Assembly (NCBI RefSeq): GCF_008711175.1 | Contig: NZ_VWNF01000050.1 | Location: 1 to 64,000 of the forward strand | Direction: 5' to 3' | Source of the DNA: Nesterenkonia ebinurensis | GTDB lineage: Bacteria; Actinomycetota; Actinomycetes; Actinomycetales; Micrococcaceae | DNA length: 64,000 nucleotides | In this document: in pieces, positions 3,301 to 48,333 of the stretch | Position numbering within the stretch: position 1 is the stretch's first letter | Layout of the letters: every line of letters starts with the position of its first letter | Notes under the pieces: model-generated | The model's input: only the letters and a program-made list of their open reading frames with translations | The model's database searches: none | Told to the model about the DNA's origin: nothing | Made by a program: the position numbers and the translations under genes

Positions 3301-6300
3301 TTCAAGTCAATGTCCGGAAGGCGATTGATCTCAACGATCTCCTCGTCCTCGTCCTCCACAGGCTCTTCGTCATCTCCAGGAGGAGTTCCGGTGGCAGTCG
3401 CGGTGTTGGGCACCTCGCCGGCGTCGATATCGTCCTGGGTCAGCTCATAGGTCGCGGTGGCAGTCACCGACTCACCGGGAACCAAAACTCCCGGCTGATC
3501 TGCATCCGGCCAGTCACCGAAGACAATCTCCGGATCCTCACCCAGCAGAGGATCGGAGATCCCCACATCTGTCAGGGTGACATTACCGGTATTGGTCACC
3601 ACGAAGGTGTAGACGACTGGGTCACCAGCGATGCTGTCGGGACCTTCGGTCAGCTCACCTGTCTTGACCAGGTCGATGGCAGGATTCTGCGGGATGGGCT
3701 GTTCGTGCTCATCTTCATCCTCCACGGGATCACCGGTCGGCGGGTTGCCGGTGGTGCTGGCGAGGTTTTCCACCTCACCGGCATCCACATCGGCCTGAGT
3801 CAGGGTGTACGACGCCGTGGCAGTCACCGACTCACCCGGAGCAAGCACCCCGGACTCACCCGGCCAGGCATCCTCGTCAATCGTCAGCGGCTCGTCGCTG
3901 ATCAGTGGGTCACTGATCTCAACACCGGTGAGTGTGACATTGCCGGTGTTGGTCACCTCGAAGGTGTAGACGACATCATCGCCGGCCTCACCCTGGGCGC
4001 CCTCTTCGAAAGCGCCGGTCTTCTCTATGCCGATATTCGGTTCCGCGGGAACAGTGACGGTCTCGTCATCTTCGTCCTCCACAGGATCACCACTGGGCGG
4101 AGTGCCCTCGGTGGTGGCGGTGTTCTCCACCTGACCAGCATCGACATCAGCCTGAGTCAGCGTATAGGTTGCAGTGCCGGTCACCGACTCCCCCGGGCTC
4201 AACACGCCTTCTTCACCCGGCCATGCATCATCTGCGAAAACGATCTCGGACAGCCCTTCCAGCTCGTCCTCAATCGTCACCTCGCTCAGGGTGACGTTGC
4301 CTGTGTTAGTCGCGGTGAACTCGTAGGTGATCACGCCACCTTCATTAGCATCAGCCAGTGTGCCGGTCTTCTCCAGTCCGATGCTGGGTGCCTGTGGAAC
4401 GACGACAGTCACGCTGTCTTCGTCCTCAACGGTCTGATCCTCAGGTGTGGTGCCGACAACGTTTGCGGTGTTCTCGACCTCGCCAGCGTCGATATCGGCC
4501 TGGGTCAGGGCATAGGTCGCCTCCGCGGTGACGGTCTCACCTGGGTCGAGGACACCCTCCTCACCCGACCAGTCCAGGTACTCGAGAGCGGACAGGCCCG
4601 GCAGTGGGTCGTCAATGGTGACGTCGGTCAAGGTGACGTTGCCCGTATTCTGCGCGATGAAGGTGTAAGTAACGATCTCACCGGGGACTCCGATGGCATC
4701 TTGGTCGAGGATGCCGATCTTGTCCAACGAGATCCCTGGCTGGTGGGGAAGCGGGATGTTGTACTCATCTTCGTCCTCAACCTCTTCGCCGACCGGAGAG
4801 GTCCCGGTCACTGTGGCCTCATTGTCGATTCCACCATTGTTGACGTCAACTTGGGTGACCTCGTAGGTGGCGGTGGCTCTCACCGAGTCCCCAGGAGCCA
4901 GCACACCTGTCTCATAGGGCCACTCTTCGAACTCGATCTCGGAGAGGCCCTCCAAGTCGTCATCCAACTCGATGGCAGAAAGTGTGACGTTGCCGGTGTT
5001 GGTGATGAGGAAGGTGTAGGTGGCCACATCTCCAGCCTCACCCTCAGCGTCTGCGGGAAGCAGACCACTCTTGATCAGTGAGATGCTCGGGTTGCCTTCG
5101 ATGAAGACCGTCTCGTCATCCTCGTGTTCGACAGGATCACCGCTCGGTGGGGCGCCTTCTGTGGTGGCGGTGTTGTCTACCTGACCAGCGTCCACATCAG
5201 CCTGGGTCAGGGTATAGGTTGCTGTGGCCTCAACGGTTTGGCCCGGAGTTAGCACACCAGGCTCGCCGGGCCAGGCTTCCTCGGCGATCTGCAGCGGCTC
5301 ATCGCTGAGCAGCGGGTCGTGAATCACGACTCCGGTCAGGGTCACATTGCCGGTGTTTTCCACCTCGAAGGTGTAGCTGACGGTGTCGCCCTCAACCCCT
5401 TCGGACCCATCAGTAAGTTCACCGGTTTTCACGATGGTGATATCCGGATCGCCCTGCACCTCGACAGAGGCGGAGTCCTCGTCGGAGACGGGGTCTCCAG
5501 CAGGCGGATTACCAGTGGTCGTCGCGGTGTTGTCCACCTGGCCTGCATCCACATCAGCCTGGGTCAGCAGGTAGCTCGCGGTGGCGGTCACTGACTGACC
5601 AGGTTCTAGGACACCAACCTCACCTGGCCATTCGCCGAAGACAATCTCGGAGTCCGCGTCGTCGAGCAGAGGATCAGTGATGCCCACGCCCGTGAGCGTG
5701 ACGTTGCCGTTGTTGGTGACCTCGAAGCTGTAGTTGACGATGTCATCGGCTACTCCGGTGGCGTCGTCGGCCAGATCACCGTTCTTCGTCAGTGAGATGC
5801 TGGGGTTACCCTCGATCAGTAGGGTCTCATCGTCTTCGTCTTCTACAGGTGGGCCCGTCGGTGGATTGCCGATCACGTCCGCATTGTTGAACACTGAACC
5901 GTTGTTCACATCTGACTGGGTCAGTGTGTAGGTGGCAGTCGCGCTTACCGATTCTCCGACCAGGAGCACTCCTTCTTCACCGGGCCAGTCATAGGTCAGC
6001 TCAGAGAGGCCGGGGAGGGAGTCATCAGTGATCTCCACCCCGGAGAGGTCTACGTTACCGGTGTTGGTCGCGGTGAAGGTGTAGGTGACCTCATCGCCAA
6101 CGACTCCTGCGGCGTCCTCAGCAAGTGAGCCGGTCTTCGACAGCTCGATTGAGGGTGAGAACTCTGGTATCTCCACGCGGTCCGGATCTGTGTCAGTGAC
6201 GGGACTTCCCACCGGAGGCACACCAAAGACTGTAGCGAAGTTGTCCACGTATCCGTTCAATACGTCCTGCTCGGTCAGCTGATAGCTGGCAGTGGCACTA

Positions 6301-7379
6301 ACCGACTGACCCGCTTCGAGCACCCCGGGGGCTCCTGGCCAGTCGCCGTAGACGATATCTGAAAGCCCTTCGAGCTCATCCACCAGATCAATGTCCGCAA
6401 GAGTGAACTCTCCCTCATTGGCGATGTCGAACGTGTAGGTGACTGTGTCACCGGCTTGGCCGTAAGCTCCACCGTCAAGTTCACCGGACTTGTCCAGCGA
6501 AATGACGGCGCAGTTCTCATTAATAACGTCAACCAAAGTGGTCCGGAGGTCTTCGAAGCCGGACATGTAGTAGTCGGAACCTTCAACAGGACCAGTGATC
6601 TGGGAAATGTTGTTGACGAAGAGCTGCGGGTTGCTCAAATTATCAGCAACGCCAATGCCTATGATGCGGGTTCCCCCCGCCTTCAACGCGTTGGCGCGGG
6701 GTATTGCGGCATTGAGCGCCGTTGTATTGGAAACGTTTGTTTGCGGATTGTTCCCGACCCCGGTTGCGGTGGGCTCGCCGTCTGTCACGAATAGCAGCGC
6801 ATCGTAGTATTCATCCGATTGGTGGGGCGTGTAGATCCCCGCCTCCCAGTTGGTCCAGAAGCGCGGATTAGTAGGCTTTACCAGGCCGTTGATGTGGTCG
6901 GTGAGGGTTTGCCTTCCCTGCTCGGTGCTTGTAGGAGTGAGCGGCAGAATCGCGTTAGCACCAGGCCCATTGGTCGTTGCCCAAGCTGGAGAATGGGACG
7001 CAAAAGTGTGGACCGATATGTTGACCGGATAATTGGCAAGGTCTTGTACCAGCGCAGTGAGCTCCTGCTTGGCGGTGTTCAGCTGGTTGTTTGACACCGA
7101 ACCGGAGAGGTCCACAGTCACTGCGAGGTTCTGCTCACACCGCTGTTGCAGGGGCGGATTGGTGTAGGGCTGAGCATGCGCAGCTGGAACCCCCGTAACA
7201 ACGGTAGTGACTGCCATGAGGCATGCTGTTAATAACGCGGCGACGCGACGCCCCATGGTTCGGGACGGAGGGCTCTGTCGCCCGCGTCTCCGGGCCTTCT
7301 GAAAGAACACTGTGACGACATTGAAGAATCGCACGACAAAACTAAGCGACCTCTGCTCTTGTCCTTTACCGGGCGTCAT
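369..7379 (-). CDS. giant cell-wall-anchored VWA protein with 17 DUF11-like repeats
   Basis: Predicted 2336-residue surface protein. I chose the ATG at 7379 because GGAG lies 7-8 bases upstream; the frame stays open to a TTG at 7538 without a good ribosome site. The N-terminus has a long basic n-region (about 40 residues with KARRRGR), then a hydrophobic signal core ending near AAHAQ. A von Willebrand A domain follows, with MIDAS motif DLSGS and TDGEP. Next come 17 tandem modules of about 117 residues, each opening like ISLxKxGxL and containing NTGNVTL and [12 protein letters not shown] (DUF11/DUF7507-type). The C-terminus is LAITG, a membrane helix and a basic tail, as for class E sortase substrates. 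Likely an adhesin or stalk protein. No sortase gene is in the window. The two LuxR-type genes upstream may regulate it (inference). Confidence 0.9.
979..3187 (-). repeat. near-identical 100-bp blocks in successive modules
   Basis: Five copies of the same block of about 100 bp begin at 979, 1330, 1681, 2383 and 3088, spaced by one (about 351 bp) or two (about 703 bp) module lengths. Two of them (1591-1858 and 2295-2560) extend to about 265 bp with only a few differences. Other modules in the gene are far more diverged, so the C-terminal third was probably expanded or homogenised recently. Confidence 0.85.
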
Positions 7380-7564
7380 AGAGACTCCATTCATCTGAAC
7401 CTGAAAACAACGAATTGGCCTATAAGCACGCTCCAGCCTGAACATCAGCTGAAAGAACTGCCCTGATTCCTGGTTTTTGACCTGGAACAAGCTGGGCGCC
7501 GGCCGGGCATGCTTAATCCGCTGCCCAATATTCCTCAACTAAAACTGCAAATTTGCCGAATTGA

Positions 7565-7642: not shown

Positions 7643-10378
7643 CTACCCTGAGTGGAGTAACCCGCTGCTATAGGCGCGCTCAAGCGCTTCAGCTCGCGAA
7701 CGCACCCCCAACTTGCGGTAGATTCTCCGAAGATGGGTCTTCACCGTGTTCTCAGACACGAGCAGCCTACGGGCGATAGCCGCACGGGACTCGGCGTTGA
7801 CGAGCTCGTCCAGCACACGATGTTCTGTGTGGGTGAGCTGCACGTCTTGGAGCGGTTCGGGAGATGACCGCTCGTCCTCACCTCGCATCGCCTCAGCTAG
7901 ATCATGGCGATCCGGTGCGTACTCGTGCAGCAATCCGGTCAACCAGCGCGGCGGAATGACCATGATGTCGTAGGGCGAACCGCATTCATCCGCCAGAGCG
8001 AGCGCAGTCACAAACTGCCGCCCAGCAATCTTGCTGTCAGCATTCGGGTAACCTTCCTCGACGAGGCCGAGTTCTGCCTGGACCCAGCAGAGTCTCATAC
8101 TGATCTCCTCCCGCAGGGTGATCGAGGTACTCTCCAGGATTTCTGCCGCAATGTCCCGTGCTTTGAGCCAGTCCTCTTCATACAGAGCGAGCACCGCGGC
8201 CACTCGCTCAATGCTCACTCCGGGCCGTCCCGGGTAGTCAGTCTCCCGAGCCTGGTCAAGATACTTCGACGCAGTAGCCAGAGCGCCGGCGGTGAAAGCG
8301 ACCGCAGCAGCCCGGGTGAGCAGCTGGACTTGCATGTATGGACTGGTAGGCGGGCGGTCACCGCGTGCAGAAAGTTCCGCAGCGACATAACTCACTATGC
8401 CAGGCTCCTTGAAGTAGAGCGCGAGCCGTGCGCGGATATCAAGAATAAAAGCCCAATACTCTGTGCTGCCCTGATGATGCTTGAGACGGTCAAGTTCGGC
8501 CGCCGCCGTTTGCGGCCGCCGATCCGCCAGAGAGACATAGGCGGAGGCAATGCAGGCAGGAGCACCGAAATAGCTTTCGTCCCAAGCTGGCGGCAGATCG
8601 AAGGAGTGGATCCAGTTGAGCACCCGACGAGTGGCATTGATGTTTCCAGACCCTGCATGGATTAAGGCTTTGATACCGGCACTGTGGAGATTGCGCCAGC
8701 TGAAGCGCGCCTGTTCGTCGGTCAACGGTTGAACGATCGGTTCGATCAGCCCCAATGCGTCGGCGTAGTGACCTAGAAACAGTTTGGTGTTGGCCGCAAA
8801 CTGCCGCAGCGCCTTGACCACCCAGACCTGGGCTGCCTGCACCACGAACCGCTGGTCCTGCGGGACCTCCAAGCCCTCACCCCGAACGACGCGTCCCTCG
8901 ACGCGAGGCAACAACTCGGTGATGATCTCGTCGGCATGGTGGAAATCGCCGACCAGATAGTGATAGGCGAATGCGACCGTCTGGTTCATCAGACGATGCA
9001 GCCCCCGGGTCTCGGGATCCAACATAGACAGAGTGTGATCCCCCACGGCAGTCAAGGTGGCTATGGTGGTCTCCGGACGACCGGCCAGCAGCGCCAAGCG
9101 GAACCAGCCAAGGTAGGGCCATTGCCGTATCAGCTCGGGGGAGGCCCGATCGAGGATACGAGTAAGCTCCTCCCTAGCGACATTCTGGAGCTCGTTGAAG
9201 TGCAGCAATGTCAGTGCGGAAATCCGCTCCCATGACCCCGCGCGGTCGGCAAGCAGCAAGGCCTGTCGAATATGTCCCTTATGCTCACACCACTCAGATA
9301 TGGTCACATAGACACGGCGCAGCTCAGCCGGTTGGATACGTTCCAGAGCGAGTTCCCGCAGACCCTCCACCAGTGCCGGATCCAGGTAAAAGGTGCCGCC
9401 CTCGTGGAACTCGCCGTGCCCAGCATCACGCAGGCGCCGCAGGACCCTCCTGGCTCCGAAGGCATCCATGACGAGCAGGTTTGCAGTGAGCTGCTCATCG
9501 AGCATGGGAGGAAGCGCCAGCCGCAGCAGAAGTCTCTGGTCCTGAGCTGGTGTGCTCTCAGCCAGCAGCCGCCGCACCAGCCGCAGGTTCAACTGTTGCC
9601 GCACGTTCTGCGCAGTCTCAGCGGTAATGACCGAATCCCGCTGCTCGCGAGCGCGGTACACCATCGCCTGCAGCATCAGTGGGGAGGAGATCCCGCGGAG
9701 CACCTCCCCATCAGGCATGGCCAAACCCGCAAGCTCCAAGGAGCTCTGGATCTCCGCCTCGGTCAGCTCAAGATCTGCGTCACCAATCATTGGGACGTGG
9801 AAGTCGTCCTGAACATCGAAGATGAAATCCTCATCCAGCCAGGGAGCCAGCAGAACGAATCGCAACGTCCTGCGGCACGCCAGAGTCTTGATGAGGTCCA
9901 GTGCCTCCTCCGTCAACCGGTCAGCCCGCTCCACCACGACCACCGCCTCCGCGGCACGGCGCTGCAGCTGCCGAGAAAGAACCGTTCCCATCCGGCGCAG
10001 CGGGCGCGGGGCCCATGCTCCGCCAAGATTCTTCGCGTCCTCGTCCAGCAGCTGAGCAGTCTCAAGCTCGTCCACAAGATCGACGTAGAAGTCCCACCCG
10101 TTGCCGCCGGAATCCTCGGCATTGAGCCAGATCACGGGCCGCTGTGTGTGCTGTCTAGCCCACTGGGCGGCCACCGTAGTCTTGCCGGTGCCTTCGGCGG
10201 CAACCATCAGCACCAGACCACTGCCGGTAACGCTGTCTTCAAGAAGCCTCACCAGGCGGGGACGGTCCGGCACATCATGGGGCACCGCCGGCAGCCGCGG
10301 GGAGAAGTACTGCGGCTGGGCTGGACCCAAATGCGGGATAGCAGAGGCATCAGAGGCTCCCGCCTCGAAATCTTGCAT
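7643..10378 (-). CDS. large ATP-binding LuxR-family regulator (MalT/LAL-like), second of pair
   Basis: A 911-residue protein. A P-loop NTPase lies near the N-terminus (Walker A AEGTGKTT at about residues 61-68, Walker-B-like VVVVERAD). The middle is a long helical, TPR-like region. The last about 60 residues are a LuxR helix-turn-helix (LTHTEHRVLDEL, then VSENTVKTHLRRIYRKLGV). This order is typical of MalT/LAL regulators, where the helical part senses a ligand and ATP binding drives oligomerisation. Its ATG overlaps the stop of the upstream regulator gene as TGATG, so the two are translationally coupled. It lies just upstream of the giant VWA gene and is its most likely activator (inference). 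The inducer is unknown. Confidence 0.85.
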   Translation of the reverse strand: MQDFEAGASDASAIPHLGPAQPQYFSPRLPAVPHDVPDRPRLVRLLEDSVTGSGLVLMVAAEGTGKTTVAAQWARQHTQRPVIWLNAEDSGGNGWDFYVDLVDELETAQLLDEDAKNLGGAWAPRPLRRMGTVLSRQLQRRAAEAVVVVERADRLTEEALDLIKTLACRRTLRFVLLAPWLDEDFIFDVQDDFHVPMIGDADLELTEAEIQSSLELAGLAMPDGEVLRGISSPLMLQAMVYRAREQRDSVITAETAQNVRQQLNLRLVRRLLAESTPAQDQRLLLRLALPPMLDEQLTANLLVMDAFGARRVLRRLRDAGHGEFHEGGTFYLDPALVEGLRELALERIQPAELRRVYVTISEWCEHKGHIRQALLLADRAGSWERISALTLLHFNELQNVAREELTRILDRASPELIRQWPYLGWFRLALLAGRPETTIATLTAVGDHTLSMLDPETRGLHRLMNQTVAFAYHYLVGDFHHADEIITELLPRVEGRVVRGEGLEVPQDQRFVVQAAQVWVVKALRQFAANTKLFLGHYADALGLIEPIVQPLTDEQARFSWRNLHSAGIKALIHAGSGNINATRRVLNWIHSFDLPPAWDESYFGAPACIASAYVSLADRRPQTAAAELDRLKHHQGSTEYWAFILDIRARLALYFKEPGIVSYVAAELSARGDRPPTSPYMQVQLLTRAAAVAFTAGALATASKYLDQARETDYPGRPGVSIERVAAVLALYEEDWLKARDIAAEILESTSITLREEISMRLCWVQAELGLVEEGYPNADSKIAGRQFVTALALADECGSPYDIMVIPPRWLTGLLHEYAPDRHDLAEAMRGEDERSSPEPLQDVQLTHTEHRVLDELVNAESRAAIARRLLVSENTVKTHLRRIYRKLGVRSRAEALERAYSSGLLHSG

Positions 10379-13026
10379 CAGCGGAGCACTTCCCGGTGGC
10401 CCTGCAGCAAGCCGTGAACATGGGCCACCGACAATGCCTGGCCCCGGCTGACTACTCCCAGCTTCCGATATAATGAGCGCAACTGACTCTTGACGGTGTT
10501 GCGGGAGACCACCAGCGCATCAGCGATGCCCTCGACCTCGGGATGGCGGGCAAGGGCGTGCAGGACCACGCGTTCACGCTGGGTCAAGTCAGGCACAAAC
10601 CTGCTAAGGGGCATAACATTTGGCACTCGCTCACCGCTGAGAACTTCAGCGTTGTCGAACCCCGAACTGATCGCCAGGTCATGAAGGTCCTCCAGCTCCT
10701 GCCGCGGCAGCAACATCAGATGGGAACGTACCCCACTTTCCACCGTTACAGCCAACAAATGGTGCACATGAGGTAACGCAGTCTCTATCTCACCACCCCG
10801 AAGTGCTGCTGCGCCCCAGATCAGATGGGCCAATGCCACCTGACGAGCAGACGCCTCGGCCAAGTCGAAACCCACCAGCAGGTTGACTGCTTCGCGGTCA
10901 TGGGCAAGATGCCCCGCCAAAGCGCACACGAGCCGCCCGAAAGAGCAACTCGGTTCGGCAGGTAGCTCTTCGAGTACCGCCCGCGCCCGTACACCGTGGC
11001 CTTCGGCTAGGTGCAGAACGGCCCGCACGGGCGCAAGAGTCTTCGACTCATCGGCGAAGACCTTGCTTCGCCGATGGCGTCGCAGATACCTGTCAATGCG
11101 CTGTAACCCGTGGGGCACATGCCCAGAAACCAGGTCCGCCAACGCTTCGAGGGCCAGGAACTCGGCCCTGAACTCAGTGGTTTGCAGATGAGGGGCCAGT
11201 GCCTGCACCTCTGCGCGCACTGCACGGGTGTCAAAGGACTCCAGTGCGATGAGTCCACGTGCCAAACGGTAAAGCGCCCCCGGAGGGCCATTGAACACGC
11301 TTGCCGGCACCTTGAGCTGGGCCGCCTCTTCAATAGCCACACCTGCTGCGGGGAGATCGCCCGCAGCCGCGCGCAGATATGCGGCAGCACCCAGAGTCTG
11401 AAACGCCGCCGCAGGCGACAGAGTCTCTATCACAGCAATGTTCTCGTCAAGGACTTCCCATGCTTCGGTGAGGTTGCCGGCAGCGACCAGGCTCAGGGCA
11501 TTCTCCAGTCGCAGCCACCCGATCTGGTCGCTGAGCAGAGAAAGATCACCCTGCTGTTCCCGGAAAAGCTCCAGTGCCTGACGCGCTGGAGCAGCACACT
11601 GAGACGCTTTCCCGCTGAGTCTCAGCGAGATCGCCTCAACGGTCCACAGCGCCGCTGCCTCGATATCGGTTACACGGCCGACCAACCGTCTGGAGCCTGC
11701 CACTGTGGCTTCGAAGTACTCCTGGGCGGTGAGTCGGCGGCTTCGCCGCGCATAACAGCCCATGGCAATGGCGAAAGCGAGCAGCGGGTATCTCCTCACC
11801 TCTTTCGGCTTCAGGTGAGCGCACGCGTCGAATACGCTGCCCTCGCCAATCAGCTGCATGCCATCTGCCAGCAGAGCTTCGGAGGCAAGGTCATAGTCCT
11901 CAGCGGCCACCGCGTATATCACAGCATCCTGGGGTCTGCCCTGCTCCAGGCACCATCGTGCGGTGATGCGTCGGGCCGGGCGCTGAGCGATGGCAGACTC
12001 AGCAGCGTGCTCCATCAGTCCTTGCCGAAAGGCGCTGTGGTAATGCCACAGTGGGTCACCGCAGCGCTCGGCGCGAGTGAGGATTCCCTCTCTTTCCAAA
12101 GTCTCCAGGATCCTCTGCGGATCGTCGGCATCGGAAAGTTCCCCGGCTAACTGAAGGTCGAACTCCTCGGGCACACAAGTGCGTAGCATGAAGCTGCGGC
12201 ACTCAGAATCCATACTGCCCAGCACATCACCAACTACTCTGGCAGCGACCTGTGCGACAGTCTCTCCTGCTGCCCGGCTCTGCATGCCCATGATCATGGC
12301 GCGCAACAGCAGCGGGTGACCACCGCAGGCTTCGTGAAGAGTACCGCCAAAGCTGTGATCGCCGAGACTTGCGGCTATCATCCGCGACGACTCCTGCGGA
12401 GTCAGCAGCAGAGCCGGCGGGCTGATAATGGTCCTACCGATTCTTGCGCCCACCAAGCCGCCCTCCAGATAGCCTCGGGTGCGAGTGGTGACGATGATCC
12501 GCAGTCTCGGACAGGTCCGCAGCAGATGGAAGACATCTTCGGCAACATGCTCGGCATCTTCGCAGCGGTCCAGATCGTCAATGACCAGCAGTTCTGTCTC
12601 AGCGCCGATGAAGAGCTGCACCAGGGCAGCTCGCATATCAGGGGCCTTCCCCAGCGCCTCGGCAAAGTCAGCTGCACGTGGGGATTGTCCAGCGACGATC
12701 TGGGCAGCAGTTACCCACAGACTGCGCCGGGTGGATGCCGGGCAGCCTGCAGAGAGCCACACGCCCAGCGGCGGATTCGCCTGCACATACTGAGCCACCG
12801 CTGTGGTCTTTCCGCTCCCGGCCGGCCCGCGACACACGGTGAGCGGGGATTCCGCGAAGGCGGACAGCAGACGATCACGGAGGATGAGACCCTCCGGCAC
12901 ACGGGGAACACCGGTCATAGACTCTGCAGTTTCGCTCAAGGAACTCAAGGAAGATCCTTCATGGAAACTGGAAGGCTGACTTGACTTCATGATAATGCCA
13001 CCTCGGCTGCTGTCCCCTACTTCCAC
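10378..13026 (-). CDS. large ATP-binding LuxR-family regulator (MalT/LAL-like), first of pair
   Basis: A protein of 882 residues from a GTG at 13026, or 870 from the ATG at 12990; both have GAGGTGG-like ribosome sites, so the start is open. It has Walker A GPAGSGKTT, Walker B LLVIDDLD and a helical middle. The C-terminal LuxR HTH contains LTQRERVVLHAL and VSRNTVKSQLRSLYRKLGV. It is paralogous to the next gene and overlaps it by one base. Two LAL regulators in one operon could form a hetero-oligomer or a regulatory cascade (inference). The upstream region is shared with a divergent XRE gene. Confidence 0.85.
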   Translation of the reverse strand: MEVGDSSRGGIIMKSSQPSSFHEGSSLSSLSETAESMTGVPRVPEGLILRDRLLSAFAESPLTVCRGPAGSGKTTAVAQYVQANPPLGVWLSAGCPASTRRSLWVTAAQIVAGQSPRAADFAEALGKAPDMRAALVQLFIGAETELLVIDDLDRCEDAEHVAEDVFHLLRTCPRLRIIVTTRTRGYLEGGLVGARIGRTIISPPALLLTPQESSRMIAASLGDHSFGGTLHEACGGHPLLLRAMIMGMQSRAAGETVAQVAARVVGDVLGSMDSECRSFMLRTCVPEEFDLQLAGELSDADDPQRILETLEREGILTRAERCGDPLWHYHSAFRQGLMEHAAESAIAQRPARRITARWCLEQGRPQDAVIYAVAAEDYDLASEALLADGMQLIGEGSVFDACAHLKPKEVRRYPLLAFAIAMGCYARRSRRLTAQEYFEATVAGSRRLVGRVTDIEAAALWTVEAISLRLSGKASQCAAPARQALELFREQQGDLSLLSDQIGWLRLENALSLVAAGNLTEAWEVLDENIAVIETLSPAAAFQTLGAAAYLRAAAGDLPAAGVAIEEAAQLKVPASVFNGPPGALYRLARGLIALESFDTRAVRAEVQALAPHLQTTEFRAEFLALEALADLVSGHVPHGLQRIDRYLRRHRRSKVFADESKTLAPVRAVLHLAEGHGVRARAVLEELPAEPSCSFGRLVCALAGHLAHDREAVNLLVGFDLAEASARQVALAHLIWGAAALRGGEIETALPHVHHLLAVTVESGVRSHLMLLPRQELEDLHDLAISSGFDNAEVLSGERVPNVMPLSRFVPDLTQRERVVLHALARHPEVEGIADALVVSRNTVKSQLRSLYRKLGVVSRGQALSVAHVHGLLQGHREVLR

Positions 13027-40837: not shown

Positions 40838-41191
40838 GTGGATCAGGTGATGGTGGTCATCCTGTCCGTGGTCCTGATCGTACTGCTGCTGAACTTCCTG
40901 GTAGCCCTGTTCGCCTTCGCCCGCCGGGGCTTCAGCGAGAACTGGCTGCTGGTGGTGCTGCTGACCGGGACCACCGGGGCCGGCATGGTGGCGCTGCTGA
41001 TCGTGCTGGAGTCCATCCTGGGAGAGAGTCTCAACCCGCCGTTCCGGCTGCTGGATGTTGCACTGATCCTCACCGGTACCGCCGCACTGACCGCTGCGGT
41101 GCGCGCCGCTGCTGGTGCCCGCACCCGGCAGGACGCCGCCGAGGGCCATGACACCGCCGGCTCCACCGCGGAGCGGAGTGAACGCCTATGA
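40838..41191 (+). CDS. mrpF: Mrp antiporter subunit F-like
   Basis: A 117-residue, three-helix protein, first gene of the antiporter operon. The GTG start has AAGGAGG 7 bases upstream. Hydrophobic blocks at about residues 5-27, 35-58 and 72-90 match MrpF/MnhF, and the tail is polar. The Mrp complex exchanges cytoplasmic Na+ for external protons, important for salt and alkali tolerance. Its stop overlaps the next start by 4 bp. The sequence match to MrpF is weak; position and topology carry the call. Confidence 0.7.
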   Translation: MDQVMVVILSVVLIVLLLNFLVALFAFARRGFSENWLLVVLLTGTTGAGMVALLIVLESILGESLNPPFRLLDVALILTGTAALTAAVRAAAGARTRQDAAEGHDTAGSTAERSERL

Positions 41192-41532
41192 GCCTGGTGC
41201 TGGATGTGCTGGCCGCAGTGCTGATCATCGGTGGGGCCTTCTTCTTCACCGTGGGCACTCTGGGGCTGATCCGCTTCTCCGATGTGCGCTCCCGGCTGCA
41301 TGCGCTGACCAAGGCGGACAACTTGGGGCTCGGGCTGGTCCTGGTGGGTTCCGCGCTCTGGCTGGCTGACTGGGCGATCGCGGGACTGATGCTGCTGTGC
41401 TGGCTCTTCGCCCTGGCCGGGGCCTCGGTCTCTGCGCATGTCATCGCCGGCCTGGAGGCTGATCATGCGGAGCAGCGTGAGCCGACACATTACGACAACG
41501 CCGCCTCACCTGAGGCAGGTGATGACCGGTGA
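41188..41532 (+). CDS. mrpG: Mrp antiporter subunit G
   Basis: A 114-residue, three-helix protein with the characteristic MrpG/PhaG segment GTLGLIRFSDVRSRLHALTKADNLG (here given as GLIRFSDVRSRLHA and TKADNLG). The C-terminal tail is acidic. It overlaps both neighbours by 4 bases (ATGA, GTGA), so the operon is tightly coupled. Confidence 0.88.
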   Translation: MSLVLDVLAAVLIIGGAFFFTVGTLGLIRFSDVRSRLHALTKADNLGLGLVLVGSALWLADWAIAGLMLLCWLFALAGASVSAHVIAGLEADHAEQREPTHYDNAASPEAGDDR

Positions 41533-42500
41533 TCTCCCCCATCGACATCACCTTGGGCCTGGCCGTGCTGGCCGTCGCCGGGCTCAGCCTGATCCCGCGC
41601 TCCCGTCTGGTGTTCACTATGGGGTTCCTGGCCTTAGGGATCGTGATCACTATGGTGTGGCTGCGGCTGGACTCTCTGGACGTGGCGCTGGCTGAGGCGG
41701 CTATCGGCACCGGTCTGCTCTCGGCACTGATGGTGTGGCTGGCCATACGCAGCCCCGAGCCCCCTGGGGCCGGGGGGATGCAGTCCAGTCCGCGGCTGCC
41801 CTGGCTGCGCCCGGTCATCGGTGCAATTGCCGGATCCGGTCTCACCATGGTCATGGCCGCCGTGTGGTTACGAGTGGACCAGCAGCTGCCGGCCTGGCGT
41901 CAGAGTGTTGACCAGCAGTTGCCGGACACCGGAGTGGAGCACCCGATTACCGGGGTACTGCTGGCCTTCCGCGCCTATGACACTCTGTTGGAATCGGCCA
42001 TCTTGATGCTCACCGCTGCCGCGGTGCTGGCGCTGTGCCGTGGAGGCGGGCTCTCCACCCCCGGCACCCACCGTCTGGGGGTCCATCAGACCTCCTCCCC
42101 TATGCCGCCGGTGCCCTCCGCACTGCCCTGGGCGGCCCGGCTGTTGGCCCCGGCACTGGTCCTGCTGGGTCTCTGGCTGCTCTTCGCCGGTTCTGCTGAC
42201 TCCGGTGGGGCCTTCCAGTCCGGGGCGGTGTTGGCTGCCGCCTTCATCCTCTTACGGACTTCGCAGGTAAGCCTGGGGACAGCCACGGAGCACTGGCTGC
42301 GCCCAGTGCTGGTGGGCGGCGTCGTGATTTTTATTCTGGCCGGGCTGCTGGGTCCGGTGCTGGGGCTGCCCTGGCTGTCCTGGGAGCCGGGGTGGGCCTT
42401 CGTCGTGGTGCTGATCGTGGAGGTGCTGCTCACCGCCGGGATCGCTGCCGGGCTGTACACCCTCTTCCTGACCTTGGAGAATCCCGAGGGGGTGCGCTGA
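41529..42500 (+). CDS. mrpB: fusion of MrpA C-terminal (DUF4040/MbhD) segment with MrpB
   Basis: A 323-residue membrane protein in two parts. The N-part (residues 1-80) resembles the DUF4040/MbhD domain, with DSLDVALAEAAIGTGLLSAL as its signature. The C-part (about 190-320) has the MnhB features GSADSGGAFQSGAVLAAAFILL and a helical end. Between them, FRAYDTLLESAILMLTAAAV matches the MrpA/MbhE-type segment. In classic Mrp operons the first parts belong to the C-terminus of MrpA; here they are detached and fused to MrpB. GTG start with overlaps on both sides. Confidence 0.82.
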   Translation: MISPIDITLGLAVLAVAGLSLIPRSRLVFTMGFLALGIVITMVWLRLDSLDVALAEAAIGTGLLSALMVWLAIRSPEPPGAGGMQSSPRLPWLRPVIGAIAGSGLTMVMAAVWLRVDQQLPAWRQSVDQQLPDTGVEHPITGVLLAFRAYDTLLESAILMLTAAAVLALCRGGGLSTPGTHRLGVHQTSSPMPPVPSALPWAARLLAPALVLLGLWLLFAGSADSGGAFQSGAVLAAAFILLRTSQVSLGTATEHWLRPVLVGGVVIFILAGLLGPVLGLPWLSWEPGWAFVVVLIVEVLLTAGIAAGLYTLFLTLENPEGVR

Positions 42501-42805
42501 TGCTGCTTCAGCTGGATACCATCACCTGGTATCTGATGATCGCTTCGGCAGTCACCGTGTTCGGCATGGTGCGGCTGCTGTTGGTCCGGGACCGGCTGGC
42601 CCGGCTGATCGCCTTGGATGTCACCGGAATCGGGGTGCTGCTGACCTTGGTGGCGCTGGCCGCCCGGGCGGATGCCCCGGATGCGGTGCTGCAGGCCCTG
42701 GTGATCACCGGCCTGGTGATTGCTGTGGCGTTCACCGGCCTGGGCGCAGTGCTGATCCGCCGGATCGAAGGTGCACAGGACACTGACGGCGGTGATGCGC
42801 GGTGA
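42500..42805 (+). CDS. mrpC: Mrp antiporter subunit C (NuoK-like)
   Basis: A 101-residue protein with three helices, of the NuoK/MrpC family: LLVRDRLARLIALDVTGIGV and DAVLQALVITGLVIAVAFTGL, the latter the classic D-AL-LTAIVI-like segment with conserved Asp. Start ATG at 42500 overlaps the previous stop (TGATG). It overlaps the next gene's GTG by 4 bp. Confidence 0.88.
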   Translation: MLLQLDTITWYLMIASAVTVFGMVRLLLVRDRLARLIALDVTGIGVLLTLVALAARADAPDAVLQALVITGLVIAVAFTGLGAVLIRRIEGAQDTDGGDAR

Positions 42806-44319
42806 CGTTAGCCCAGTTCAGCCTCGGCGGCTTGGTACTGCTGCCCCTGCTGGCAGCGGCGGTGATGATCGTGCTGCCGCACCTGTGGCGCCGGATCCTC
42901 GGGGTGGTGTTCGGGGTGCTGACCGCCGGACTCACCGTGCCGGTGATCGCCCAGGTATCGGCTTCGAACCTGCCGGAGCTGGTGCTGGGCGGGTTCGAAG
43001 CCCCGCTGGGCATTCATCTGCGCGGCGACGGTCTGGCCGCAGTCTTCCTGGGAGTCACTGCCCTGGTGGGGCTGGTGCTGACGGGGTACGCCGCGGTGGT
43101 GACCAAAGCTGAGGGCAGTTACTTTAGCGGTTCCTCCTGGCAGCCGGGAAACCCAGGTTTCTGGCCGTTGTGGCTGGGCTGCTGGTCGGGGCTGAATGCG
43201 GTGTACCTCTCCGGGGACCTGTTCAACCTGTATGTGGGCCTGGAGCTGGTGGGCCTGACCGCGGTAGCACTGGTGGCCCTGGGCGGGCGCAGCTCCTGGG
43301 AAGCTGCCCTGCGCTACCTGTTCATCGCCGTGCTGGGTTCCCTGCTGTTCCTGGCTGGGGTGGGGCTGCTGGTCTCAGTGACCGGCACCTTGGATATTGA
43401 GCAGACCCGTGAGGCACTCGAGCAGCTCGATGATCAGGCGGCACCGCTGCTGGCGCTGGTGCTGATCACCTTAGGGCTAGGCATGAAGATCGCCCTGCTG
43501 CCGATGCACCGCTGGCTGGTGCCGGCGCACTCCGCAGCACCCAGTGCGGTCTCTCCGATCCTCTCAGGACTGGTGATCAAAGCGGCACTGGTGGTACTGC
43601 TGCGCACCTGGCTCTGGGCAGTGCCGCTGGTGCAGGGCAGCCAATGGCTGGCCTGGCTGCTGGGGGCCCTAGGTGCGGCCGCAGTGCTGGTGGGCTCGGT
43701 GCTGGCGTTGCGCCAGACCCGGCTCAAACCCCTGGTGGCCTACTCCACGGTGGCTCAGATCGGCTACTGGTTTCTGGCCTTCCCGCTGCTGCCCACAGAC
43801 AACAACGACGACGCCCTGGCCGCAGGTGCCTTTCATGCAGTAGTTTCCCTGGCAGCTGGGCACGCGATCGCCAAAGCGGGTCTGTTTGCTGCTGCAGGGC
43901 TGCTGAAGGACCGCTGCGGCACTGATGAGATTGATGCGCTACGCGGGGCCGGGGTGCATCAGCCAGCGCTGATCCTGGCGATGGGCATGTGCGCGGTGGG
44001 GCTGATCGGGCTGCCGATCAGCCTGGGCTTCACCGGCAAGTGGCAGCTGACCACCGCCGCGGTGGCTGCCGGGCACTGGTGGCTGGTTGTGGTAATTGCC
44101 GCCGGGACTCTGCTTACGGCAGGGTATCTGCTGCGCGGCATCGCCCCCCTGCTGCTCGCGCCGGCTGAGCAGCCCGAAGACGCACCGGCCGCCGGGCCGG
44201 TCACGCAGCGCATCCGTCTCGGCGAAGCCGCAGTCATACTATTGGGCCTGGCCACCATCGGCACCGGGTTGCTGGGCGCCTGGCTGGCCGACCTGCTGGA
44301 GGTGGGCGCATGGTGGTGA
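42802..44319 (+). CDS. mrpD: Mrp antiporter subunit D (proton-conducting, NuoN/M-like) 1
   Basis: A 505-residue protein of about 14 helices from the complex-I antiporter family. It has LYVGLELVGLTAVALVALGG with the conserved Glu of helix 5, the helix 7-8 lysine region (LGMKIALLPMHRWLVPAHS), and VAYSTVAQIGYWFLAF. This is the first of three such subunits in a row. GTG start, 10-bp overlap with the next gene. Confidence 0.88.
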   Translation: MTLAQFSLGGLVLLPLLAAAVMIVLPHLWRRILGVVFGVLTAGLTVPVIAQVSASNLPELVLGGFEAPLGIHLRGDGLAAVFLGVTALVGLVLTGYAAVVTKAEGSYFSGSSWQPGNPGFWPLWLGCWSGLNAVYLSGDLFNLYVGLELVGLTAVALVALGGRSSWEAALRYLFIAVLGSLLFLAGVGLLVSVTGTLDIEQTREALEQLDDQAAPLLALVLITLGLGMKIALLPMHRWLVPAHSAAPSAVSPILSGLVIKAALVVLLRTWLWAVPLVQGSQWLAWLLGALGAAAVLVGSVLALRQTRLKPLVAYSTVAQIGYWFLAFPLLPTDNNDDALAAGAFHAVVSLAAGHAIAKAGLFAAAGLLKDRCGTDEIDALRGAGVHQPALILAMGMCAVGLIGLPISLGFTGKWQLTTAAVAAGHWWLVVVIAAGTLLTAGYLLRGIAPLLLAPAEQPEDAPAAGPVTQRIRLGEAAVILLGLATIGTGLLGAWLADLLEVGAWW

Positions 44320-45896
44320 CCAATAGCCTCATACCGCTGCTGCTGGTGCTGCTCTCGGTGGCGGTGGCCGCCATGATCTTCCCGCTGCCTGAGCACTCAG
44401 TGAAGCTACGCAGCACCATCAATCTCGGCGGTGCGGTGGCCAAACTGGTGCTGATCATTCTGCTGGTCCCACCGGTGGTAGCCGAGGGTGCACGTCCGGA
44501 GTTCTCGGTACCGTTCTTGCCCACCGCCGGCGGTGAGGCAATCAGCCTGGTGCTGCGGGTGGATCCGCTGGCGCTGTTCTTCGCCGGACTCTCTGCGGTG
44601 CTCTGGCTGTTGACCACCGTGTATGCCATCGGCTATCTGGAGGGCAAACCGAACCGCAGCCGGTTCTTTGGGTTCTTCGGTCTGTGCGTGGCCGCCACCG
44701 TGGGGATCAGTTTCTCCGGGAACCTCATCACCTTCTTAGTGTTCTACGAGCTGCTGACTCTGGTCACCTATCCGTTGGTGGCCCACTGGGGGGATGAGAA
44801 GTCCCTGAACGCGGCCAAGCTGTATATGCGCTATGCCTTGGGCGGCGGGGTGGCGGTGCTCATCGGGGTGGTCTGGCTGACCATGGAGGCTGGGGCGGTG
44901 GACTTCGCTGAGGGTGGGGCAGCTGACGTGGCGGAACTGGCCGCCCGCTCCCCCGGCGTCGTCGTACTCATCTTTGTCCTGCTGGTGGGCGGGCTGGGGG
45001 TGAAGTCCGCCCTGGTTCCGCTGCACTCCTGGCTGCCTGCCGCCATGGTGGCCCCGGCTCCGGTGTCTGCGCTGCTGCACGCAGTGGCAGTGGTCAAGGC
45101 CGGGGTGTTCGGGATTGTGCGGGTGATCGATGACGTCTATGGCATCCATGTGGCCTGGGAGCTGGGCGTGCTGACCCCGCTGCTGGTCATCGCCAGCATC
45201 ACCGTGATCTACGGCTCCTACCAGGCGCTGCGGCAGAGCGAGATCAAACGGCGGCTGGCCTTCTCCACGATCTCCCAGGTCAGCTATGTGGTGCTGGGGG
45301 TGACCATGTTCTCGGTGGCCGGGACCGCTGGTGGGGTGGTGCACCTGGTGCATCAGGGGCTCATGAAGATCACCCTGTTCTTCTGCGCGGGCCTGTTCGC
45401 TGAATCCATGGGGGCGCATACGATCGCTCAGCTGCGCGGGGCCGGGCGGCGGATGCCCTGGACCTCGGCGGCCTTCACCGTGGGGGCCTTCGGGATGATC
45501 GGGCTGCCGCCCACTGCCGGGTTTGTCTCCAAGTGGCAGTTAGGGCTAGGTGCCCTGGATTCTCCGCACCCGTGGGTGCTGGTGGTGCTGGTGGTCTCCT
45601 CGCTGCTGAATGCTGCGTATTTTTTGCCCGTCGTGTATTCACTCTGGTTCGGTGAGCCAGATGACGGCGAGCGATTGAGCCATGAGGTCACCAGCAGGGG
45701 TGCCGAGTCTGCCGAGGCGATTGAGGCAGCGCCCAGCCGGAGGCGCGGCCACCTCTCCAAAATACGGGAGCCGGGGATGCTGCTGGTGCCGGCGCTCTGC
45801 ACTGCCGGGTTCACCCTGGGCGTGGGGTTGGCGACGTCGTTGACCTTCTCTCCCCTGCAGATCGCCCGGTTCATCGCTGAGGGGGTGTTCGGCTGA
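44310..45896 (+). CDS. Mrp antiporter-like subunit D (proton-conducting) 2
   Basis: A 528-residue, about 14-helix protein of the same family: ITFLVFYELLTLVTYPLVAH with Glu, VKSALVPLHSWLPAAMVAPAP, and LAFSTISQVSYVVLGVTMF. It matches NuoM/MrpD-type subunits best. Residues RLSHEVTSRGAESAEAIEAA in the last cytosolic loop come from a dispersed DNA element (45672-45732). It overlaps the next gene by one base. The second of three antiporter subunits; it may replace the N-terminal part of MrpA (inference). Confidence 0.85.
   Translation: MVVTNSLIPLLLVLLSVAVAAMIFPLPEHSVKLRSTINLGGAVAKLVLIILLVPPVVAEGARPEFSVPFLPTAGGEAISLVLRVDPLALFFAGLSAVLWLLTTVYAIGYLEGKPNRSRFFGFFGLCVAATVGISFSGNLITFLVFYELLTLVTYPLVAHWGDEKSLNAAKLYMRYALGGGVAVLIGVVWLTMEAGAVDFAEGGAADVAELAARSPGVVVLIFVLLVGGLGVKSALVPLHSWLPAAMVAPAPVSALLHAVAVVKAGVFGIVRVIDDVYGIHVAWELGVLTPLLVIASITVIYGSYQALRQSEIKRRLAFSTISQVSYVVLGVTMFSVAGTAGGVVHLVHQGLMKITLFFCAGLFAESMGAHTIAQLRGAGRRMPWTSAAFTVGAFGMIGLPPTAGFVSKWQLGLGALDSPHPWVLVVLVVSSLLNAAYFLPVVYSLWFGEPDDGERLSHEVTSRGAESAEAIEAAPSRRRGHLSKIREPGMLLVPALCTAGFTLGVGLATSLTFSPLQIARFIAEGVFG
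45672..45732 (+). repeat. dispersed in-frame element, copy C (in Mrp subunit)
   Basis: CGATTGAGCCATGAG followed, 40 bases after the start, by CCGAGGCGATTGAGG. It encodes RLSHEVTS...ESAEAIEAA in a loop between helices. Confidence 0.55.
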
Positions 45897-47782
45897 TGCT
45901 GGGGGCTGCTCTGATTGCGCTGAGCCTGCTGCTGCCGCTGGCCGCGGTGGCGCTGATTGCGCTGGCCGGGGCCCTGGCCGCGGAGCAGGCACACCGAGTG
46001 CGAAGGTCAGCGGCGCTGTTCTCCCCGCTGACCGTGGCTCCGACCGTAGTGCTGACCCTGGCTGCACCCGGGGCTGAGCTGAGCCTCGACTGGCTGCTCT
46101 TCGGCACGGTGTTGCACATGGATGCCGCTGCCCGAGCGCTGGTGCTGATCGCTGCCCTGCTCTACGGGGCGGCGCTGATGGCGGTCACCTGGGTTAAATT
46201 GCGCGACGCCGAACGCGGCTCCGGGGCGCTGAGCGCGTTCCTCATGGTGTGCTTCGCCGGGAACATCGGTACCTATCTGGCCGCTGATGCGGTCACCTTC
46301 TATCTGGCATTTGCGGTGATGAGCTTCTCCGCCGCCGGACTGGTGATCCACTACCGCACCGCCTCGGCCCACCGGGCCACCCGGATCTACCTGGTGATGT
46401 CAGTCTTCTCCGAAACCGCCATACTTGCTGGACTTATCCTCACTGCGAGTGCTGGTGGTTACCTAGTGGCTGATGCACCCTCCGCAGTGGCCGCCAGTGA
46501 GCACACCGGGCTGATCGTGGCTCTGCTGTTGATCGGCTTCGGGGTGAAGGCTGGCACTGTGCCGCTGCATATGTGGCTGCCGCTGGCCCATCCGGCGGCT
46601 CCGCCTGCTGCCTCCGCGGTGCTTTCCGGGGCGATGGTCAAGGCGGGACTGGTCGGGTGGCTGCGGTTCCTCCCCATTGGGGACGACGCCGCCGCCCTCG
46701 CCACCGCCGGAAACACTCTGCTGGTCCTGGCCCTGCTGGGGGCCTTCGCCGCGGTGGTGGTCGGCGTGCTGCAGTCAGATCCCAAGGTGGTGCTGGCATA
46801 TTCGACCATCTCTCAGATGGGATTCATCGCCTGTCTGGTGGCCGTCGCCCTGCTGGTGCCGGAGAGCGCCGGTGCTGCCATGGCGGCTGCAGTGCTCTAC
46901 GCGGTGCATCACGGGCTGGCCAAGGGGGCGCTGTTCCTGGGGGTGCCAGTCGTCAAGCACTACGGTCGCGGTGGAACCGGGGTGCTGGTGCTCATCGGTA
47001 TGGCCGGTGCCGGCCTGGCTGTGGCCGGCGCACCGCTGACCTCAGGCGCCTATGGCAAGTATGTCTCCAAGGAGGCGGTGGAGGGTTTCGCGGTGCTGGG
47101 GGTGGGGCTGGATCAGCTGCTGCCGCTGGTGGCAACTGGTTCGACTCTGCTGCTGATCCGCTTCGCTTTCATAGTGAGCCACACCGAAGTCCGCCCCCGT
47201 CCTGGAGCCGATGGTGAGTTAGCTTCGTGGTTGGCGGTGTGTGCAGCCGGTATTGCGGTGCCCTGGCTCATCGGGGCCGCTTGGTTGCCAGACGATCCGG
47301 AGTTCAGCTGGTCCGCCGGTGCACTCTGGGATGCCAGCTGGCCGATCCTGCTGGCGCTCGGTCTCGGCGCAGTCGTCTGGCTCTATGTACGAAACAGGGG
47401 CACGGGCGGTCAGGCCCAGAGCGAAGCGAGTGAGCTGACTTTAAGGGGTGAAGGCCGCAGTAAGGCAGGCGAGAGCCGAGCCCGACTTGCGCGCGCCGGC
47501 GGAATGAGCATTCTTCAGCCTGGGGATCTGATTGTGGCTGAAGAATCGCTGGCGATGCGCAGCTGGCAGCATGCCTCCCCTGGGCTGAATGCTGCGCACC
47601 GGGCCGCTGGCAAAGTGCGCAATGCCAGTGCCCGTGTCGCACAGAACCTAGCCGAGCGCACCCGTCGGCTGACCGCGAGCGCCGAGGGCTCTCTGGGTAG
47701 CTGGGAGGGCTCGGGTCTCGTGATACTGGTGTTGACCACCGTGGCAGTGCTGATCATTATGTGGACAGGAGGTGTGTGGTGA
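45896..47782 (+). CDS. Mrp antiporter-like subunit D (proton-conducting) 3, with C-terminal extension
   Basis: A 628-residue member of the family. Helical core: AVTFYLAFAVMSFSAAGLVIH (Ala where the paralogues have the helix-5 Glu neighbourhood), VKAGTVPLHMWLPLAHPAAP, LAYSTISQMGFIACLVAV and AVHHGLAKGALFLG. A soluble segment of about 120 residues (RGTGGQAQSEASE... to RRLTASAEG) is inserted before a last helix, TVAVLIIMWTGGVW. The segment begins with a GAGCGAAGCGAGTGAGC repeat-like sequence. It is the third antiporter-type subunit, making this operon unlike the two-subunit standard. Confidence 0.82.
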   Translation: MLGAALIALSLLLPLAAVALIALAGALAAEQAHRVRRSAALFSPLTVAPTVVLTLAAPGAELSLDWLLFGTVLHMDAAARALVLIAALLYGAALMAVTWVKLRDAERGSGALSAFLMVCFAGNIGTYLAADAVTFYLAFAVMSFSAAGLVIHYRTASAHRATRIYLVMSVFSETAILAGLILTASAGGYLVADAPSAVAASEHTGLIVALLLIGFGVKAGTVPLHMWLPLAHPAAPPAASAVLSGAMVKAGLVGWLRFLPIGDDAAALATAGNTLLVLALLGAFAAVVVGVLQSDPKVVLAYSTISQMGFIACLVAVALLVPESAGAAMAAAVLYAVHHGLAKGALFLGVPVVKHYGRGGTGVLVLIGMAGAGLAVAGAPLTSGAYGKYVSKEAVEGFAVLGVGLDQLLPLVATGSTLLLIRFAFIVSHTEVRPRPGADGELASWLAVCAAGIAVPWLIGAAWLPDDPEFSWSAGALWDASWPILLALGLGAVVWLYVRNRGTGGQAQSEASELTLRGEGRSKAGESRARLARAGGMSILQPGDLIVAEESLAMRSWQHASPGLNAAHRAAGKVRNASARVAQNLAERTRRLTASAEGSLGSWEGSGLVILVLTTVAVLIIMWTGGVW

Positions 47783-48333
47783 TGAGTGAACGCCTCCTCA
47801 CCTGGACGGCGGCTGCGCTGCTGCGTGTCGTGGTGCTGGGCCTGCTGTGGGTGTTCTTCGCCGGGCTCAACGGCGACTACGCGGTCTACGGGGTGGTCTC
47901 AGTGGCCATCTGCACCACACTAAGTTTGTGGCTGGCACCCCCGCGGTCCCCGGTGCGGATCGCCGGCTGGCCGCAGCGGGCCTGGCATGCTGCGACCCTG
48001 TTCCTGTGGTTCGTGTGGCAGTCGGTGCTCGGCGGGGTGGATGTGGCTCTGCGCTCGCTGCGCCGCCCGGTGCGGATCGAGCCTGCTGTGGTCAGCGCAC
48101 CTTTTGAGCTGCAGGAGGGCCATGCCCGGCAGCTGGCGATGGTGATGATGAACCTGATGCCAGGCTCGATGATCCAGCGCACCACCGACGCCACCGGCGC
48201 CACCTCCCTGATGGACGGTGATGGGCATACCGCTGAGCCCACCCATGTGGAGCTGCACACTCTGGCCGCAGAGCTGGACCCCGCCGCCCAGTGGCAGACT
48301 CTGCAGCACCGGGTAGCCCGCGCGGTGAACTGA
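47782..48333 (+). CDS. mrpE: Mrp antiporter subunit E
   Basis: A 183-residue protein of the MnhE family. ATG at 47782 overlaps the previous stop (TGATG), with AGGAGG 9 bases upstream. Two N-terminal helices are followed by a soluble domain containing MVMMNLMPGSMIQRT, the MrpE consensus around NxxxPGS, and HVELHTLA. Last gene of the antiporter operon; a 19-bp gap separates it from the convergent mutM. Confidence 0.88.
   Translation: MSERLLTWTAAALLRVVVLGLLWVFFAGLNGDYAVYGVVSVAICTTLSLWLAPPRSPVRIAGWPQRAWHAATLFLWFVWQSVLGGVDVALRSLRRPVRIEPAVVSAPFELQEGHARQLAMVMMNLMPGSMIQRTTDATGATSLMDGDGHTAEPTHVELHTLAAELDPAAQWQTLQHRVARAVN

Follow-up and report, generated by a model that had tools for sequence, protein, structure and literature searches.

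Is a row of Mrp-like genes that encodes three antiporter-like subunits and no complete MrpA an ordinary cation/proton antiporter with a divided subunit, the membrane arm of a respiratory enzyme, or an antiporter of another kind? The question is raised by positions 40838-48333 (forward strand) of a 64,000-nucleotide stretch of Nesterenkonia ebinurensis DNA (NCBI RefSeq assembly GCF_008711175.1, contig NZ_VWNF01000050.1, positions 1 to 64,000), below called the window. Eight genes lie here on one strand, with overlaps of 1-22 bases between neighbours, in the order F, G, a fusion of MbhD, MbhE and MrpB, C, three large subunits designated D1, D2 and D3, and E. They had been located at these positions by a preliminary description made from the letters alone, and all were found there, on the forward strand. 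Taken as a whole, the data are best explained if the operon encodes a Group 3 Mrp-type (CPA3) monovalent cation/proton antiporter with one gradient-driven arm and with D3 as its end unit; we give this explanation a probability of about 0.78.

The assignment is carried by the composition of the operon. No protein of the cluster joins an antiporter domain with DUF4040, which sits on the MrpB fusion, and therefore the operon has no full MrpA. The Pfam domain layout thus bears out what the preliminary description had said on this point, and likewise its placing of an MbhD-like part ahead of MrpB, since MbhD and MnhB were matched on one protein (E 5.8e-08 and 8e-09; the MbhE match, E 7.3e-04, reached 20 bits against a 27-bit cut-off). 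Its count of three NuoL/M/N-like proteins, the number known from complex I, agrees with the three PF00361 proteins standing in a row. Group 3 Mrp was defined in 2021 by the absence of mrpA, mrpD being present "sometimes with multiple copies" (PMC8415708). In the operon full-length mrpA is absent, three subunits are of the mrpD type, B, C, E and G were recognized by Pfam, and F by its place and alignment; the order of these genes is irregular, as in the group. The three-antiporter operon is a member of this known kind. The reading frame of C opens at 42392, its start being taken as the ATG at 42500, which overlaps the stop codon of the fusion. For the MrpF-like protein neither Pfam nor NCBIfam yielded a match at E 0.001; NCBIfam models of related proteins exist, and the matches obtained here all remained below their cut-offs.

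Table 1. Genes of the three-antiporter operon, with positions in the window
Gene product	Coordinates (strand)	Length (amino acids)	Residues	Basis
MrpF-like subunit	40838..41191 (+)	117	Asn35-Trp36 at the usual Asp-Arg pair	operon place and alignment with F proteins of homologous operons
MrpG	41188..41532 (+)	114		PF03334, E 2.3e-22
MbhD (DUF4040) + MbhE-like segment + MrpB fusion	41529..42500 (+)	323		PF13244, PF20501 (below cut-off), PF04039; AlphaFold2 model
MrpC / NuoK-like subunit	42500..42805 (+)	101		PF00420, E 4.5e-09
D1, antiporter-like, MrpD/MbhH/NuoN type	42802..44319 (+)	505	E148 K229 K260 K413	PF00361, E 2.7e-53; tree; residues
D2, antiporter-like	44310..45896 (+)	528	E147 K232 H257 K263 K408	PF00361, E 8.7e-61; tree; residues
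D3, antiporter-like	45896..47782 (+)	628	A140 E173 K218 K249 K388	PF00361, E 4e-29; AlphaFold2 model; VIA-align; residues
MrpE	47761..48333 (+)	190		PF01899, E 2.9e-13

Descent of the three large subunits was followed in a tree that retained 91 of 118 rows and used 15 of 23 loci hand-chosen out of 80. Eight hand-chosen loci (24 rows: L053, L057, L064, L069, L087, L106, L125 and L128) were omitted for size, and the reference rows L166, L169 and L170, which are further D2-like copies, were left out as well. In a quick tree 11 rows were of odd residue composition, and HyfB and HyfF stood on long end branches. D1, D2 and D3 each formed a clade of its own with support 100/100, each clade spanning phyla; judged by their sequences, the three are not recent copies of one another. 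MrpA, NuoL and HyfD clustered together at 100/99, with D2 and D3 left outside, and D1 grouped with MrpD, NuoN, MbhH and MbsH at 90/95. D2 and D3 were weakly joined (86/89), and since both clades have long stems their relative position is unsure. Constraining D3 to form a clade with MrpA was rejected by the approximately unbiased (AU) test with p 0.021. The constraint uniting D2 with MrpA was not rejected (p 0.086), nor was that uniting D1 with MrpD, i.e. D1 as a plain MrpD (p 0.344). The result that the preliminary description had named as refuting its own reading, a phylogeny showing two of the genes to be a split MrpA of ordinary type, was thus not obtained: D3 stands apart from MrpA, which belongs with NuoL and HyfD. 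D2 may still be of MrpA-like descent, as its union with MrpA was not rejected by the AU test.

Functional residues were compared family-wide in all 24 sets, the counts over 72-81 sequences excluding L065 and L073. In D1 the helix-5 Glu and the helix-7 Lys are kept in 71 of 72 sequences each and the helix-12 Lys in all 72 (the missing ones are gaps); the helix-8 Lys is kept in 67 of 72, with four Thr and one gap. In D2 the Glu of helix 5, the Lys of helix 7 and the His of helix 8 are each present in 70 of 72 sequences, the other two being gaps, and the helix-8 Lys is kept in 69/72 and the helix-12 Lys in 72/72. At the place of the helix-5 Glu the 81 D3 sequences carry Ala (61), Thr (10), Ser (5), Val (3) or Gly (2), and no Glu was found anywhere in helix 5 of any of them, whereas all other rows compared possess it (24 of D1, 24 of D2, 10 of MrpA, 7 of MrpD, 7 of NuoL, 6 of NuoM, 7 of NuoN, 3 of HyfB/D/F and 3 of Mbh/Mbs). 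Glu173 of D3 helix 6 is invariant (81/81), and the lysines of helices 7, 8 and 12 are kept in 79/79; with gaps set aside, the helix-7 and helix-12 Lys occur in every D1, D2 and D3 sequence counted. Glu173 is aligned with Asp in 7/7 NuoL sequences. Opening and closing of the NuoL ion pair K229/D178 was proposed in 2022 (PMC9271201), and in the Mrp model published in 2020 the helix-5 Glu connects adjacent units (PMC7419157). D3 seems, by these residues, to possess a NuoL-like ion pair yet to be devoid of the residue that connects neighbouring units. The helix-8 His of D2 (24/24) is shared with MrpA (10/10), NuoL (7/7) and also HyfD, and is absent from the MrpD, NuoM, NuoN, D1 and D3 rows compared. 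His, Thr, Met and Val have been listed as NuoL/MrpA positions of helix 8 (PMC4938563), and at these four positions the D2 of the window has His and Val and does not have Thr and Met.

The AlphaFold2 model of D3 (45 sequences; mean predicted local distance difference test score, pLDDT, 88.6) has helices at residues 474-500, 545-600 (56 residues) and 603-624. An extra soluble segment noticed in the preliminary description turned out to be the C-terminus of D3, approximately residues 505-600 of 628, which is predicted to form a long helix and is followed by the last helix. The topology predicted for D3 is thus NuoL-like, with a lateral helix and then a last helix after helix 15; in MrpA and NuoL, helix HL between helices 15 and 16 braces the complex (PMC7419157). 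Among structural matches found by VIA-align, NuoL chains were the highest (Z 40.2, root-mean-square deviation 3.3 Å over 480 residues), and MrpA chains of two Mrp complexes gave Z 38.5 and 37.2, about 3 or less below the top. First matches by sequence in the PDB were 6u8y_H and 6cfw_H for D1 and 6u8y_X and 6cfw_H for D3, all of them Mbs and Mbh chains; 6u8y_X is taken by us, from its length, to be MbsH' of Mbs.

The fusion has nine long predicted helices, which correspond to the C-terminal part of MrpA plus MrpB. In a Foldseek search its AlphaFold2 model (36 sequences, pLDDT 78.1) was matched best by 7d3u_A, the MrpA of Dietzia (E 1.1e-04), with Mbs, Mrp and Mbh chains next at E of at least 0.012. 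Its E56 is aligned with MbhD E69, and it has Gly where the genome's own three MrpA proteins have Glu; in this mark the small-subunit side appears to be of the Mbh type. D151 and E155 of the fusion are aligned with the Asp and the Glu that are conserved in MrpA. In MrpF of three-antiporter operons the Asp of the Asp-Arg pair is kept in 28 of 38 rows. The genome's own classical MrpF proteins of loci L010 and L011 have the pair, and that of L012 was not found. Trp replaces the Arg in the window protein and in nine relatives (six Nesterenkonia, two Corynebacterium and one Micrococcus), and these ten have Asn, Asp, Ser or Gly at the Asp place. Replacement of this Asp by Ala or Leu abolished activity in the Mrp systems tested (PMC5703873), while its replacement by Asn or Glu had a mild effect in B. 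subtilis itself, and hence the cation path of the Trp-bearing branch may or may not differ. Loss of a Pro in MrpG was considered as a trait special to this lineage and dropped: by eye, Pro is missing from the classical place in all 23 G rows shown from three-antiporter operons, and in one of the genome's own classical MrpG proteins (L010) as well. Two of the three own classical MrpC proteins carry a His that was not seen, by eye, in the C rows of three-antiporter operons shown.

Within the genus, 22 of 29 other genomes gave a D3 match below 1e-40; beyond it, in the same family and order, 1 of 28 further genomes did so. Of the 22 stretches read in the genus, 18 have the full set of eight genes with every gene in a single frame, so that the operon is not a chance occurrence. 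In the remaining four, D1 is broken (L028), the genes are broken throughout (L046), only D3 and E were found (L047), or the operon is cut by a contig end (L048). L028 (L065 in the residue comparison) belongs to Nesterenkonia sp. PF2B19; in L046 (L073), from N. pannonica with a listed completeness of 62%, the operon genes are split into many frames, and in both cases decay and sequencing error were not told apart. Among the matches listed, the nearest relative by D3 is N. salmonea (71%). The single genome with a match outside the genus (G030), which represents a different genus of this family, has two diverged three-antiporter operons (L025 and L026) about 22 kb apart; the search found seven of the eight genes in them, F not being among these. 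In a phylum-wide search 65 of 396 genomes passed 1e-40 and only 20, the own genome included, exceeded 325 bits; the others scored 210 bits or less and may represent other antiporter families.

A wide scan gave 80 loci, which are the best D3-profile matches out of at least 496 relatives among at least 594 stretches, and for this reason they say nothing on how common the kind is. They belong to Pseudomonadota (32), Actinomycetota (29), Verrucomicrobiota (5), Thermodesulfobacteriota (4), Bacteroidota (3), Chloroflexota (3), Myxococcota (2) and Kiritimatiellota (1), with one unlabelled. D1-D2-D3 is intact in 69 of them and C-D1-D2-D3 in 62, the latter representing eight named phyla and including one locus whose phylum is unlabelled. 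The fusion was called as one protein before C in 46/80 and as two pieces in 18/80. Lamprobacter (L083) and Allochromatium (L103) have a second D3-like gene after the operon. Thioalkalivibrio, Desulfonatronum and Roseinatronobacter, which are haloalkaliphiles, are among the relatives, the sample not being representative. The letters MbhA to MbhH follow the order of genes in the Mbh operon. E stands last in 24 of the 80 best loci and first in 36, which gives E-F-G-MbhD-(MbhE)MrpB-C-D, the very succession that a published homology table maps onto MbhA to MbhH (PMC8415708), so the word "reshuffled" used in the preliminary description is misleading.

Several described systems are close to this operon. 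Its reading as a new arrangement was rejected, since the third mrp cluster of Microbacterium sp. TS-1 was printed as mrpFGBCDDAE and placed in Group 3 in a 2017 review (PMC5703873). TS-1, also an actinobacterium, has the same gene order and subunit set and, in addition, two other Mrp clusters that belong to Group 2 (PMC5703873); however, its last large subunit, known here by description, is labelled MrpA, while D3 falls outside the MrpA clade. The 2013 genome note on TS-1 states only that there are three mrp sets and names M. arborescens as its nearest kin; in M. arborescens (L064) we found G-fusion-C-D1-D2-D3-E, F not being found by profile. The Group 3 Mrp of 'Ca. Nitrospira alkalitolerans' likewise has two NuoM/NuoL-like genes downstream of mrpD, noted in 2020 as probable additional mrpA/mrpD-like genes (PMC7784846), a likeness drawn from description only. 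The stand-alone Mrp of Pyrococcus furiosus, mrpEFGBB'CD, also has no MrpA (PMC8415708) but only one MrpD against three antiporter-like subunits here. Mbh and Mbs share the MbhD-type glutamate place with the fusion, and 6u8y_X is the first PDB sequence match of D3; however, their membrane modules carry redox modules, none of which was found here. Classical Mrp of Groups 1 and 2 (Bacillus, Anoxybacillus, Dietzia) has corresponding parts, with the Glu/Lys set of D1 and D2 and the Asp/Glu pair of the fusion, but it has one long MrpA and two antiporter-like subunits. The membrane arm of complex I (NuoK, N, M, L) also contains three antiporter-like subunits, and the D3 model has NuoL topology with the lateral helix; its subunits, however, form separate clades, the redox module is absent here, D3 has no helix-5 Glu, and D2 has a helix-12 Lys where NuoM has Glu. 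Separate D clades, a general loss of the helix-5 Glu in D3 and natural D1-D3 loci were not met in the titles, abstracts and passages searched. Literature searches gave nothing relevant on Mrp antiporters of Nesterenkonia or mrpD of Thioalkalivibrio, and in PMC8875376, one of the papers listed for Nesterenkonia, Mrp is the Fe-S carrier only.

The genome itself contains nine PF00361 matches, namely D1, D2, D3 and three classical MrpA+MrpD pairs, which were placed in the MrpA and MrpD clades; as all nine are accounted for by Mrp proteins, the genome has no NuoL/M/N set. A NuoD-type subunit (Complex1_49kDa, PF00346) gave no match in this genome, which is 98.65% complete, and a control search was positive in 11 of 14. 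No redox subunit was found among the five neighbouring genes scanned, which encode a major facilitator superfamily (MFS) protein, thiamine phosphate synthase, a LysR substrate domain, dienelactone hydrolase and Fapy-DNA glycosylase. Elsewhere in the window, on the reverse strand, positions 369-7538 encode a protein of 2389 amino acids, perhaps a surface protein, that contains a DUF11 domain and 17 stretches matching DUF7507, and positions 7643-13026 encode two adjoining large proteins (911 and 882 amino acids) with AAA-type and LuxR-type (GerE) domains and a one-base overlap.

These data allow the rival explanations to be weighed. If the operon encoded the membrane arm of a complex I-, Mbh- or Mbs-like respiratory enzyme with redox subunits located elsewhere, its three antiporter-like subunits and the first PDB matches of D1 and D3 to Mbs and Mbh chains would be natural; yet this almost complete genome has no NuoD-type match, the scanned neighbours include no redox genes and the nine PF00361 matches leave no NuoL/M/N set, so we rejected this explanation as highly improbable. 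It is also unlikely, though to a much lesser degree, that an ordinary MrpA was split and that the product works in two steps like a standard antiporter of this type, one of its subunits being spare. D2 does carry the helix-8 His of MrpA, NuoL and HyfD, and its union with MrpA was not rejected, the D3 model shows a lateral helix of the MrpA/NuoL type, and in the 2017 review the large subunit that comes last in TS-1 bears the letter "A" (PMC5703873). However, these two marks of MrpA, the His and the lateral helix, occur on different proteins, D2 is without Thr and Met at two of the four helix-8 positions, the DUF4040 part has the glutamate place of MbhD and not that of the own MrpA, and in the tree MrpA keeps to NuoL and HyfD, with its union with D3 rejected.

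The other alternative is of the same kind as the preferred explanation and differs from it on D3, which would be a regulator or a brace that moves no ions, so that only D1 and D2 would pump with the stoichiometry of standard Mrp. This is possible, if doubtful. It would agree with the loss of the helix-5 Glu from every D3, a residue whose importance for antiport has been rated as extreme in both MrpA and MrpD (PMC5703873). Nevertheless, the invariant helix-6 Glu and the three conserved lysines would be needless in a mere brace, and three loci retain D3 yet drop D2.

Most likely, as far as protein sequences can tell, the product of the operon works on its own as a Na+(K+)/H+ antiporter and has a proton arm of complex I length. 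Its subunits would be lined up in a single membrane arm that starts with the small subunits, continues with C, D1 and D2 and ends in D3, whose lateral helix would extend back alongside D2 and D1 as that of NuoL does in complex I. Since a search of the genome gave no redox subunit of the NuoD type, ion gradients should drive this arm. Membrane potential would draw H+ in via the D subunits, and charge changes would travel along the Glu/Lys chain to a cation site at C/MbhD, expelling Na+ (or K+). According to the two-subunit Mrp model of 2020, two H+ enter per Na+ (PMC7419157); a third unit could lift this ratio to 3 H+ per Na+, which would be useful against high external Na+ at high pH, and an altered stoichiometry in comparison with standard Mrp, which the preliminary description had suggested together with a different ion coupling, is possible. 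Being without the helix-5 Glu and having a helix-6 Glu at the Asp place of NuoL to pair with the helix-7 Lys, D3 is more likely an end unit with a gate of a different kind, serving as a brace and as the port by which protons enter, than one more step identical to the other two. The most specific version, namely that D3 is a distinct ancient class which dropped the helix-5 Glu and uses the helix-6 Glu/helix-7 Lys pair as its only gate, each Na+ being exchanged for three H+, or for two if the end port is one-way, is put forward only tentatively, as the odds are against it.

Several observations weigh against the antiporter explanation or its parts. The order of subunits in the arm is proposed by analogy. 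The D3 lateral helix was modelled with moderate confidence (block pLDDT 63-81, and 53-59 in the segment preceding it), VIA-align rows span the model mainly to residue 573, so that its last part was barely tested, and ranking by Foldseek E-value gave two MrpD-type chains first (9a6h_B and 6z16_D), followed by MrpA, NdhF and NuoL. The helix-5 Glu was dispensable in one assay: B. subtilis with MrpA E113Q grew as the wild type at pH 7.4 (PMC4938563). In three of the 80 best loci (L108, L118 and L127, all from Pseudomonadota) D1 is directly followed by D3, and in the genus seven of the 29 genomes, two of them 79% and 65% complete, have no D3 match below 1e-40. With Asn-Trp in place of the Asp-Arg pair in the MrpF of the window the cation path may be altered, and the H+/Na+ ratio of classical Mrp itself is not fully established experimentally. 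Finally, given three classical MrpA+MrpD pairs in the same genome, the role of the three-antiporter operon may be minor.

How charge passes along the antiporter-like subunits common to Mrp and complex I is an open question, and the consequences of operon differences among Mrp groups were little studied as of 2021 (PMC8415708). Among Group 3 operons there are natural sets with one (Pyrococcus Mrp, PMC8415708), two (D1-D3 loci) and three antiporter-like units and no redox module in the operon, and D3 is an end unit naturally devoid of the helix-5 Glu, usable for testing the charge relay. Measured across such sets, H+/Na+ ratios would test both the passage of one proton per unit and the helix-5 Glu as relay. 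If D3 is indeed a distinct gate and the complex works at either of the ratios named above, three H+ for one Na+ or two combined with a one-way port, Na+ would be expelled at potentials too low for classical Mrp.

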